Of a stretch of DNA of 64,000 bases, positions 53,688-57,491 are shown piece by piece. The notes under the pieces were generated by a model. That model worked only from the letters and a program-made list of their open reading frames with translations. It searched no databases and was not told where the DNA came from. A program made the translations under genes and the position numbers. Within the stretch, counting starts at the first letter, position 1; every line of letters begins with the position of its first letter. Source of the DNA: Haliclystus octoradiatus (taxonomy: Eukaryota > Cnidaria > Staurozoa > Stauromedusae > Haliclystidae); contig OU744450.1 in the NCBI GenBank assembly GCA_916610825.1, forward strand, positions 26,952,350-27,016,349, read 5' to 3'.

Positions 53688-56600
53688 ATGGCGCTTGACA
53701 ATGGTATGACAGAAGATGAGACATTCAGTGAAATAAAACGAGAAGTTCTAGAAGACTTACGAGACTTTCTTGTCAGCAATATTGACCCATCGAAGTTCTT
53801 TCCTTATTTACGTAGTAAAAGAGTCCTGACTGAGGATGACGAAGAAGAAATTGAGTCGGAAAAGACAAGAAAAAAGAGAGCAGAGAAGTTCTTAAATTTT
53901 ATTTGCAAGCGCGGTGGAGAGGGGTTTGATGAGTTTTGTGAAGCAATCAGAAGAAACAAGACACAGCTGTTCATGTTAACAAAGATATTAGATCAATTTG
54001 AAAGTAGAAAAGAAAACCTTCCATTGCCTGGTAAGATGGAAATGATGCTGGGACTAGAAACAAATGTAGGCCAAGGCCTAGCTAAAATCACACGAAACAG
54101 TCTAATCTAATTGAGTTAGTTCCAAAATATATTTTTTTGGCTCCATGCAAATGGCAATAGAAACGATAGGTTAGAAAAGGTTAGCCTATTGTCGGAAGAA
54201 AATAATTTATGCTTTTTTCACTAGCCTGTATTTTCTCAAAATCTGATTTGATAGCGTTGATGAAAATGCATAATTAGTGTGTACCATGGTGTATCCAATA
54301 TACTAATTAAACAGAAACTCAACAGGAAATAACTCAATCCTATGCACTCTCCTTGGTCTATCCCTAGAAAGACGGTAACTTTCCGGTCAATCTAGGCTAT
54401 AACGGAAACTCTCTGGTCGATCACGATCTCTAGCCAAACGAGACTTGAACGGAAATTAAACAACTTTTCTAGAGATTGGCAGATGCTCAATGACAAGTTT
54501 GTCTAGCATATTACTCAAAAGTGATTAGTCAAATAATGCATTATTACGTTTTACGTATTTTCTTCAATTCTAGGTTCAGATGGGGATCGTCAACTGCCCC
54601 CTCTTCCTTCGAATCCGCCTGCTTATGATGACATTAATAGTGAATCTGTTGCGTTCTCATCAGGAGAAGGTAATGTTCAATAAATAGTTAACAAATCTTA
54701 AAATCTACAACAGTGTGGCTTCTTAAAGTTATGTTTCTGTATTCCAAATTTCCATTCATCCAGATTGATTAAAATTTTGGTTCAATAAGTCAATGCCGCC
54801 TTAAATGTGAATCTAAGCTATCTAGCTTAAAGGAGGTTTGGAACAGTAGACATCATTTTGAAAAAGAAATAATGCCACACTCTATACTTTGCAAAAACAA
54901 TGATAGCAGATTATAGTGTACTGTGTACATGGTTTTTAATACGGTATGGAAAAAAAACAAGGTCTATTTATATCAAATATCAGCATGGCGACACTTTTAC
55001 ATTTCACTAGTGTTGCCATGGCAACATTTGAGCAGTTCAACTTTTCAAATTCCCTTTTAGAGCCATTTTTTGCAACAACACTATCTGAGCACCCCGTTTT
55101 TTTCATCATCACCTTTGAAGTATACTTTTACATCGATGACATAAATGTATTGATCCTATAACTTATAATACAGTACTTCAAATAACCCACATTTAAGTGC
55201 AATTCACGCTTATCTGTAACCTGGATATATGAAAACCTTCGAATGAGATGAGTCTCCTGATGATCACCTTCTGGTGTGAAACTTGAAGTAGCGTAATTCT
55301 AGCATGTTTCATTCTAACTCTCATTCGATAAATGCTCTGATTAATTTTATTGAGCATTTGAGCACTATACCAAGAATTTGTGTGGAACAATCCCACTATT
55401 ATTATTATTATTATTATTATTATTATTATTATTATTATTATTATTATTATTATTATTATTATTATTATTATTATTATTATTATTATTATTATTATTATTA
55501 TTATTATTATTATTATTATTATTATTATTATTATTATTATTATTATTATTATTATTATTATTATTATTATTATTATTATTATTGTATAAATTGAGAGGTT
55601 CTTAATTTCGACTTCATTATACTTAGTAGCGACAAATAAAACACACGATAATCTGCAACGGTTTCGATTTATTCTTAAATCATCGTCAGGCAAGTGAAAG
55701 AGAGAGAGAACAGGTTTTACATCGTATTTATAGTTAGAAATTATTTACATGATCTATTGAAATTTGGGGCTCTATATACGACTATAACACACTAAACAAT
55801 ACATGAAACATTATGACGGAAGGGATGGTCTGAAGCGGTACTAATTACGGATACAATACAAAATAAATATGAAATAATAATTACTGTTATACAAAGAAAA
55901 CAATGAAACAAAGAATAGAAATAAAATTAAAATTAAAATATCTATGACCATTCTGATAGAACATTTTACTTTCTATTCTTTGTTTCATTGTTTTCTTTGT
56001 ATAACAGTAATTATTATTTCATATTTATTTTGTATTGTATCCGTAATTAGTACCGCTTCAGACCATCCCTTCCGTCATAATGTTTCATGTATTGTTTAGT
56101 GTGTTATAGTCGTATATAGAGCCCCAAATTTCAATAATCATGTAAATAATTTCTAACTATAAATACGATGTAAAACCTGTTCTCTCTCTCTTTCACTTGC
56201 CTGACGATGATTTAAGAATAAATCGAAACCGTTGCAGATTATCGTGTGTTTTATTTGTCGCTACTAAGTATAATGAAGTCGAAATTATTATTATTATTAT
56301 TATTATTATTATTATTATTATTATTATTATTATTATTATTATTATTATTATTATTATTATTATTATTATTATTATTATTATTATTATTATTATTATTATT
56401 ATTATTATTATTATTATTATTAATAATAATAAATATTATCCAATAGCAGTAAAACAGTGCTCAATGTCTGTTGACAGAGCTGTAAATATAAATAGAGGAG
56501 TCAAAGACTACACATTTTGTTACTGTAACTTGAAGTTTCACGCTTTATTGCGATCATCAGACAGTTAAAACTAGATCTAGTTTTAACTGTCTGATGATCG

Positions 56601-57491
56601 CAATAAAGCGTGAAACTTCAAGTTACAGTAATAAAATGTGTAGTCTTTGACTCCTCTATTTATATTATTATTATTATTATTATTATTATTATTATTATTA
56701 TTATTATTATTATTATTATTATTGTTATTGTTATTATTATTATTATTATTATTATTATTATTATTATTATTATTATTATTATTATTATTATTATTATTAT
56801 TATTATTATTATTATTATTATTATTATTATTATTATTATTATTATTATTATTATTATTATTATTATTATTATTATTATTATTATTATTATTATTATTATT
56901 ATTATTATTATTTAATAAAATTTATGTTTATCTAATAGCAGATAATATAGGGCTCTATGTCTTCATTTGACAGAGCGGTAAATAATAATAATATATGGCG
57001 AAAGAGTCAAAGAATACACATTCTTTACTGTTACTCAAGTTTCACGCTTTTCACAGCGATCTTCAGACAGATTTTTCACTCAATTTACAGATTTTTTGAG
57101 TAAAAAATCTGTCTGAAGATCGCTGTGAAAAGCGTGAAACTTGAGTAACAGTAAAGAATGTGTATTCTTTGACTCTTTCGCCATATATTATTATTATTAT
57201 TATTATTATTATTATTATTATTATTATTATTATTATTATTATTATTATTATTATTATTATTATTATTATTATTATTATTATTATTATTATTATTATTATT
57301 ATTATTATTATTATTATTATTATTATTATTATTATTATTATTATTATTATTATTAAATGAAACAAAGATGATTTATAGATGACATTTATACTTTTTGATT
57401 TTGGATGTTCTCTTTCCATGCTTCAGGGTTACAAATGTTGAATGACAGTTTTGACACTCAGCGGCAATCTGTCCCTCCACAATACAACTGA
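53688..57491 (+). CDS. BCL10-like CARD adaptor
   Basis: BCL10 links CARD9/10/11/14 scaffolds to MALT1 and forms CARD filaments that activate NF-kB. Exons 53688-54030, 54574-54669 and 57427-57491 join in frame to 167 residues; human BCL10 has 233. The N-terminal CARD (about residues 8-105) matches BCL10 closely: EVLEDLRDFLVSNI, FFPYLRSKRVLTEDDEEEIE, KRAEKFLNFICKRG, EAIRRNKTQLFMLTKIL. Then comes LPLPGSDGDRQLPPLPSNPP and a PPAYDD motif that fits a WW-domain ligand. The tail is short and lacks the long Ser/Thr-rich C-terminus of mammals. The start is ATG 53688 in AAGATGG. Reading through exon 1 to a stop at 54110 was the alternative; the donor at 54031 fits phase and family better. Intron 2 holds the palindrome-microsatellite cluster. 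Confidence 0.85.
55257..55297 (+). repeat. Diverged hammerhead-like motif, dispersed repeat
   Basis: CTGATGA (55257-55263), a CACC/GGTG hairpin and GAAAC (55278-55282), then TTGAA and GTA, as in the palindrome arms. Stem I pairing is poor. A homologous stretch lies at 48938-48980 inside aquaporin intron 2, sharing TCTAGCATGTTTCATT downstream. It directly precedes the first ATT array. Confidence 0.5.
55396..55583. repeat. (ATT)n microsatellite, about 188 bp
   Basis: An uninterrupted run of ATT triplets. Long poly-Ile, poly-Tyr and poly-Leu frames read through it are artefacts. Confidence 0.98.
55603..56287. repeat. 685-bp palindrome 1, arms about 318 bp, 50-bp spacer
   Basis: The left arm (55603-55920) and right arm (55971-56287) are near-perfect inverted copies with about one indel. 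The outer ends are TAATTTCGACTTCATTATAC and its complement. The right arm on the plus strand holds CTGACGA (56201-56207), a GATTTA/TAAATC hairpin, GAAAC (56225-56229), GTT and GCAG; the left arm holds the same on the minus strand. ATT arrays lie outside both ends, directly on the right and after about 20 bp on the left. Confidence 0.95.
56284..56421. repeat. (ATT)n microsatellite, about 138 bp
   Basis: ATT triplets between palindromes 1 and 2, ending in AATAATAATAAATATT, which can fold back on the array. Confidence 0.97.
56485..56666. repeat. 182-bp perfect-centre palindrome 2
   Basis: Its centre is CTAGATCTAG at 56571-56580 with no spacer. The 91-bp arms differ at one position. The right arm contains ACTGT (56586-56590), CTGATGA (56591-56597), a CGC/GCG hairpin, GAAAC (56612-56616), TTCAA, GTT (56622-56624) and ACAGT (56625-56629). 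ACTGT and ACAGT are complementary. Confidence 0.97.
56664..56912. repeat. (ATT)n microsatellite, about 250 bp
   Basis: A long ATT array with two GTT-type interruptions near 56724-56730. It separates palindromes 2 and 3. Confidence 0.97.
56982..57197. repeat. 216-bp palindrome 3, 12-bp spacer
   Basis: The arms are 56982-57083 and 57096-57197, nearly identical, with ATT units at the outer edges. The right arm has CTGT (57109-57112), CTGAAGA (57113-57119), a CGC/GCG hairpin, GAAAC (57136-57140), TTGA, GTA (57145-57147) and ACAG (57148-57151). The arm sequence is related to palindrome 2 (GAGTCAAAGA.TACACATT, TTTCACGCTTT). Confidence 0.96.
57186..57355. repeat. (ATT)n microsatellite, about 170 bp
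   Basis: The last ATT array of the cluster, ending about 70 bp before exon 3 of the BCL10-like gene. Confidence 0.97.

Follow-up and report, generated by a model that had tools for sequence, protein, structure and literature searches.

Hammerhead-like motifs in coding-free palindromes among ATT arrays of Haliclystus octoradiatus, and a probable link to the ends of Penelope-like elements

How Penelope-like elements (PLEs) insert, why their ends lie head to head and what purpose their hammerhead ribozymes serve are treated as open questions in the relevant passages of the PLE papers. A 2 kb locus in the staurozoan Haliclystus octoradiatus raises these questions in an unusual setting. Within the window (the whole stretch of 64 kb that was analysed, from contig OU744450.1), three near-perfect palindromes lie between long ATT arrays, and an earlier note on this DNA had described a hammerhead-ribozyme-like motif in each. 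What are these palindromes? The interpretation given in that note is partly supported by our analysis of the three elements. The motif stands in every arm, and we consider it rather probable that the palindromes are truncated pairs of Penelope-like pseudo-long terminal repeats (pLTRs), joined head to head within (ATT)n and devoid of open reading frames (ORFs). The palindromes and their motifs are as follows.

55603..56287, no strand: palindrome 1 (pal1), two arms (about 324 alignment columns) separated by a spacer of about 38 nt
56485..56666, no strand: palindrome 2 (pal2), two 91 nt arms with no spacer
56981..57198, no strand: palindrome 3 (pal3), two 103 nt arms and a 12 nt spacer, its outermost bases merging into ATT
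56197..56237, plus strand: pal1 right-arm hammerhead motif; stem I TTGC/GCAG, stem II GATTTA/TAAATC with a bulged U, at most one stem III pair, cut predicted after 56233
55653..55693, minus strand: pal1 left-arm copy, found by descriptor; minus-strand cut predicted at 55657
56586..56629, plus strand: pal2 right-arm hammerhead motif; stem I ACTGT/ACAGT, stem II CGC/GCG with U·U at its base, stem III A-U and C-G, HH9 score 23.2 bits
56522..56565, minus strand: pal2 left-arm copy, found by descriptor; HH9 score 21.7 bits, minus-strand cut predicted at 56527
57109..57151, plus strand: pal3 right-arm hammerhead motif; stem I CTGT/ACAG, stem II CGC/GCG with U·U, cut predicted after 57147
57028..57070, minus strand: pal3 left-arm copy, found by descriptor; minus-strand cut predicted at 57032

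The hammerhead order was sought with a descriptor that joined a stem I of at least 4 pairs, CTGANGA, a stem II of at least 3 pairs (a single unpaired base on either side was tolerated), GAAA and UH. The descriptor was written with prior knowledge of the motif in the earlier note, and the identical descriptor was applied to shuffled sequences. Six sites were found in the window, two per palindrome and outward-facing, with zero elsewhere (plus-strand spans 56201-56233, 56591-56624 and 57113-57147; minus-strand spans 55689-55657, 56560-56527 and 57066-57032), compared with a mean of 0.09 and a maximum of 1 in 100 dinucleotide shuffles of the window. When the right arms were shuffled by composition, the motif arose in 10, 3 and 2 of 40,000 draws each for pal1, pal2 and pal3, respectively. 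All six arms carry the core CUGANGA..GAAA..UH together with stems I and II, open at stem I. The order is most easily followed in pal2 (56586-56629), which reads ACTGT, CTGATGA, T CGC AATAAA GCG T, GAAA, C TTCAA G, TT and ACAGT, with a predicted cut after 56624.

Six sites against 0.09 expected support the motif as hammerhead-like, and judged from its sequence it is of minimal type I in every arm, with cleavage as a prediction. The order, stems, coordinates and cut sites (56624, 57147 and 56233) proposed previously hold as given. That the motif is a chance product of hairpin-forming repeats, such as microRNA (miRNA) or hairpin RNA precursors, has a negligible probability. Many Rfam miRNA families do score on the hairpins, but these candidates were rejected, as all the scores are below the gathering scores and are typical of long hairpins generally, and the motif is expected only 0.09 times per 64 kb. 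The earlier note also saw covariation in the hairpins. They do pair in each element, but this is weak evidence because pal2 and pal3 share the CGC/GCG stem II, leaving a contrast between pal1 and two elements with which it can hardly be aligned. As pal2 and pal3 are related, the independent cases of the motif are nearer two than three.

The palindromic context has consequences for folding that the earlier note left undrawn. The free-energy minimum of the short core is not the hammerhead: in pal2 the imposed hammerhead fold reaches −2.8 kcal/mol, compared with a minimum of −8.9 kcal/mol, and the folding z-scores of the cores are −0.91 (pal2), −2.18 (pal3) and −1.98 (pal1). Whole palindromes fold as single hairpins of −146.6 (pal2), −167.0 (pal3) and −534.6 kcal/mol (pal1), and in these models the arm-to-arm hairpin should outcompete the ribozyme if both arms share one transcript. 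Given the stability of the hairpin, exemplified by pal2, the putative ribozyme is more likely to have been active in a precursor RNA with one arm only, or in a transcript initiated near the centre.

The earlier note raised as a caveat an extra U beside the core. In pal2 and pal3 this base forms part of a stem II of the form U-CGC..GCG-U, with a U·U at the base, and for these two elements the caveat can be relaxed; pal1 differs in having a bulged U rather than a U·U. A CTGANGATCGC..GCGTGAAAC core with the same U·U is shared by hammerheads in IMG/VR viral contigs, where it occurred at 40 sites in 39 contigs (L001-L039). With a full hammerhead defined as at least 4 pairs in each of stems I and III, 23 of these sites with a TCGC/GCGT stem II were type I, 11 type III and 6 neither (17, 5 and 4 when distinct sequences are counted). 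Full hammerheads at 34 of 40 sites, compared with a mean of 0.63 of 40 in a shuffled-flank control, indicate that a U·U at this place is common among natural hammerheads of viral contigs, and thus not disqualifying for pal2 and pal3. Among animals, the axolotl HHR_Amex2 also carries a U·U at the base of helix II, and is described as weaker for it in the passage concerned (PMC7229834). Unlike the palindrome motifs, the IMG/VR hammerheads have full stems I and III, are single and not palindromic, and belong to viral contigs. Many of them lie just ahead of an ATG, and one contig (L020) holds two hammerhead copies 518 nt apart.

The setting of the three elements is as regular as their motif. From left to right the locus runs (TAT)n, 19 nt extension, pal1, (ATT)n, 63 nt extension, pal2, (TAT)n, 68 nt extension, pal3 and (TAT)n, with the following flanking features.

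55397..55583, no strand: (TAT)n array left of the pal1 extension
55584..55602, minus strand: pal1 left-arm extension, 19 nt, present in the left arm only as read from the sequence
56284..56422, no strand: (ATT)n array abutting the right end of pal1
56422..56484, minus strand: pal2 left-arm extension, 63 nt, with a stem-loop GCTCTGTC..GACATTGAGC at 56459-56480
56663..56912, no strand: (TAT)n array abutting the right end of pal2
56913..56980, minus strand: pal3 left-arm extension, 68 nt, with the conserved stem-loop at 56952-56976 and a short (ATT)4 between tail and stem-loop
57186..57355, no strand: (TAT)n array abutting the right end of pal3
56158..56197, plus strand: TATAAAT (56158) and TCACTT (56193), immediately upstream of the pal1 hammerhead, resembling the TATA and TCACT of the rotifer Penelope pLTR

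All three elements sit between ATT arrays, in an AT-rich setting; an array directly meets the right end of each palindrome, and an extension parts each left end from its array. Long ATT arrays occur in the window next to pal1-pal3 only, the sole other ATT-type entry being short and imperfect (62021-62052). The stretch between the predicted cut and the array, which we call the tail, measures 39 nt in pal2 and pal3 and 50 nt in pal1. The extensions of pal2 and pal3 are alike in 41 of 52 aligned columns, with 7 mismatches, indicating homology with the stem-loop retained in both (minus-strand reading GCTCTGTC..GACATWGAGC; −8.7 kcal/mol and z −1.42 in pal2, −7.9 kcal/mol and z −3.61 in pal3).

Near-perfect palindromes inside (TAT)n could also be produced by a DNA fold-back or miniature inverted-repeat transposable element family that targets TA-rich microsatellites, with a hammerhead inherited from a captured retroelement end; plant Mutator-like elements are reported, in the part of the source that concerns them, to target TA microsatellites (PMC4486113). 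We regard this origin as unlikely. The ends of the three elements are not symmetric, each having a left extension of 19-68 nt and a right arm that abuts the array, and a target-site duplication is unreadable here. Three independent-looking arms retain the hammerhead, where a passenger would decay. No transposase was found in the 36 of 42 window ORFs that were scanned, with which a non-autonomous element would still be compatible.

Within each palindrome the two arms are nearly identical. With spacers excluded, 322 of 324 columns agree in pal1 (no mismatches, two gap columns; ungapped segments 99% and 96%), 90 of 91 positions in pal2 and 102 of 103 in pal3, each of the latter two with one mismatch; BLAST identities that include the centres are 96.5% (pal1), 98.9% (pal2) and 94.5% (pal3, over 218 nt). 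Between elements, pal2 and pal3 differ in 29 of 105 columns (13 mismatches and 16 gap columns), with the same count in the same columns in the left- and right-arm alignments, and pal1 aligns poorly with both outside the motif. High identity within the palindromes, taken with these mirrored differences, indicates that, after the elements diverged, one arm served as the template for the other or a single template gave rise to both, or else that conversion keeps the arms alike. Perfect palindromes and long microsatellites are difficult to assemble, but an assembly or fold-back read artefact is scarcely credible for three different palindromes, each with its own mismatches or gaps between the arms and with a non-palindromic extension.

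A doubtful alternative involves no new retrotransposition: one ancestral unit of extension, palindrome and ATT array would have been tandemly duplicated, and gene conversion or hairpin-templated repair would have maintained arm identity in each copy. The pal2 and pal3 units do share their order, and their divergence is similar in the extension (7 mismatches) and the arm (13 mismatches). Against this, a third element, pal1, shares the setting and can hardly be aligned with the others, and pal2 and pal3 have centres of different length and sequence, in keeping with separate formation of the palindromes.

The closest resemblances are to PLEs. In the passages describing Penelope of the rotifer Adineta vaga, pLTRs are inverted and mostly head to head, and the inverted junction is palindromic; they have a TATA box together with TCACT, one of the inverted pLTRs may carry a 31 bp tail, and simple AT-rich targets are preferred (PMC3846280). 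The palindromes studied here share the head-to-head order, palindromic junctions, tail, TATA and TCACT pair (in pal1) and AT-rich targets. By contrast, the rotifer pLTRs flank an ORF or captured DNA, where nothing lies between the ends here, and those passages make no mention of hammerheads (PMC3846280). A rotifer pLTR and its tail cover 22 codons past the ATG (PMC3846280), compared with about 69-72 nt (pal3, pal2) from the base matching the ATG of CTGATGA to the palindrome end.

The second resemblance is to PAc, a Poseidon element of Anolis carolinensis, whose hammerhead lies at the junction of pLTR and ORF, near the start codon. According to the passages on its activity, PAc cuts 5′-ATT-3′ most often, both strands are cut and extended, and reverse transcription has two internal starts bounding the tail, of which the one in a stem-loop, 111-118 bp into the ORF, is favoured (PMC11167929). 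Hammerhead, ATT setting, two bounds of a tail and a stem-loop all have counterparts here, where the stem-loop lies 77-98 nt (pal2) and 87-111 nt (pal3) past the ATG-matching base, near the position in PAc in the two elements that have it. PAc differs in being full-length, coding and in direct tandem, and head-to-head palindromes are not described in the passages on it (PMC11167929). Terminons, PLEs attached to rotifer telomeres, likewise have a terminal hammerhead adjoining a simple repeat that matches the target, but they are giant and coding, carry telomeric repeats rather than ATT and are not palindromic in the passage concerned (PMC6431247).

PLE hammerheads are reported, in the passages cited, to be minimal, without helix III or tertiary contacts (PMC7761336; PMC6155905), and a minimal hammerhead followed by a tail of 39-50 nt stands in each arm here, in the inverted head-to-head order of pLTRs. 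Of the two hosts suggested previously, Penelope-like pLTRs therefore fit well, and retrozymes badly. A canonical non-LTR retrozyme would, like these elements, be small and non-coding with a type I hammerhead in an animal genome, and the U·U of the axolotl hammerhead belongs to that class. Known animal retrozymes, as presented in the passages on them, are repeats of about 170-400 nt in direct, head-to-tail tandem; they are expressed as circles, and most of their hammerheads retain tertiary contacts (PMC7229834), whereas the copies here are inverted, with no second direct motif within a unit. A retrozyme identity is thus very unlikely.

From these likenesses we infer a Penelope-like origin, and the palindromes likely work like PLE ends. 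Our data are consistent with a model in which two pLTR ends were joined head to head at their 5′ sides, giving a short non-coding insertion. Read outward, each arm would comprise a truncated pLTR (with the promoter-like TATA/TCACT pair in pal1), a minimal type I hammerhead and the tail, and the left arm would continue for a further 19-68 nt, including the conserved stem-loop in pal2 and pal3. Both strands of an (ATT)n target would be nicked, and each would prime reverse transcription of an RNA with hammerhead, tail and stem-loop. One cDNA would begin at the end of the tail and the other past the stem-loop, and the two would meet at their RNA-5′ ends in the palindrome centre. The substrates of the hammerhead would be tandem or read-through transcripts, which it would cut just inside the tail; once the palindrome is complete, a transcript that spans the two arms should fold into the long hairpin and mask the ribozyme. 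Double-primed copying of this kind would account for the matching arms and their head-to-head order, and also for an extension on one side only and for flanks of ATT. Self-priming, which the authors of the rotifer study proposed for palindromes (PMC3846280, in the passage cited), can likewise produce equal arms, but on its own it does not account for the right arm ending with the tail, next to the ATT array, in each of the three elements.

Several points weigh against a Penelope-like reading. Stem III is minimal, with the A-U and C-G pairs named in the earlier note present in pal2 and at most one pair, hence nearly no stem, in pal1. Rfam models, including the hammerhead models that the note proposed as a check, were run on the interval 55400-57600, on the pal2 right arm and on the window as a whole, and no Rfam match in the window reached a gathering score. 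At a loose threshold the only hammerhead matches were to HH9 on the pal2 arms, at 23.2 and 21.7 bits against a gathering score of 52. Both junctions of each element are the same microsatellite, making a target-site duplication unreadable, and gene conversion could equally yield the arm identity. The distance likenesses to the rotifer and anole elements come from three elements, and from two for the stem-loop. In the passages reporting assays of PAc, insertion in vitro did not require its hammerhead, which cleaved only when protein was present (PMC11167929). No Penelope-like reverse transcriptase (RT) or GIY-YIG ORF was found in the 36 of 42 scanned ORFs, from which short or intron-split remnants could escape, and two RVT_1 fragments in the window look by eye like those of long interspersed nuclear elements (LINEs). 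Absence of RT and GIY-YIG would be expected of a non-autonomous derivative, which would lack both.

The Pfam scan covered 36 of the 42 listed window ORFs (six at E 0.01 and thirty at E 0.1), the remaining six being microsatellite read-through; the palindromes hold no listed ORF besides such read-through. Pfam matches in the window are animal-like (CARD, aquaporin, WD40 and amino-acid transporter). One LINE-like RVT_1 fragment, at 62010-62993, has a reading frame that starts in an imperfect (AAT)n stretch, and a PDB search with the RT fragment at 62031-62993 gave no match. The window also contains a 74 bp satellite of 15 copies with 96% match (18852-19959), a 19 bp/76 bp tandem array (61197-61731), a dispersed inverted pair that is 86-91% complementary (11705-11960 and 26243-26497), and a tRNA-Arg (TCT) at 20744-20812 with an inverted, 79% similar copy 37 kb away at 58063-58135, perhaps a tRNA-derived repeat.

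Relatives were also sought in viral and prokaryotic sequences. The tail-side pattern matched 5 contigs and the extension pattern 8, with the hammerhead descriptor in none of them (103,794 bases, including L053), and the hammerhead-plus-ATT pattern matched 0 viral contigs. Without the descriptor, the pattern matches were treated as chance, as was the single genome_contigs match, L053, in a Gracilibacteria metagenome-assembled genome; of these contigs, L053 and the surroundings of the matches in L040-L044 were read directly. These empty searches say little, as relatives are not expected there. In the literature searched, which was covered in part, we found no description of ORF-less hammerhead palindromes.

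What the locus offers the study of PLEs is simplicity. Each palindrome is free of coding sequence, has a hammerhead at both ends and near-identical arms, and sits in a simple repeat known as its target, which narrows the question of insertion to the PLE ends, and the mirrored differences between elements date arm copying to or after the formation of each. A more far-reaching account, to which we give a low probability, is a double-ended target-primed reverse transcription. In this account a Penelope-like ribonucleoprotein would cut both ATT strands, each 3′ end would prime on a separate hammerhead-tail-stem-loop RNA, and the cDNAs would meet head to head. The ATT primer would anneal to the short AUU stretch that separates tail from stem-loop, in the way that telomeric stretches pair in Terminons. 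If double-ended priming is true, ORF-less hammerhead palindromes would be a self-propagating class of mini-elements, and the telomerase-like RT might itself have used the AUU stretch as a template for the long ATT arrays.

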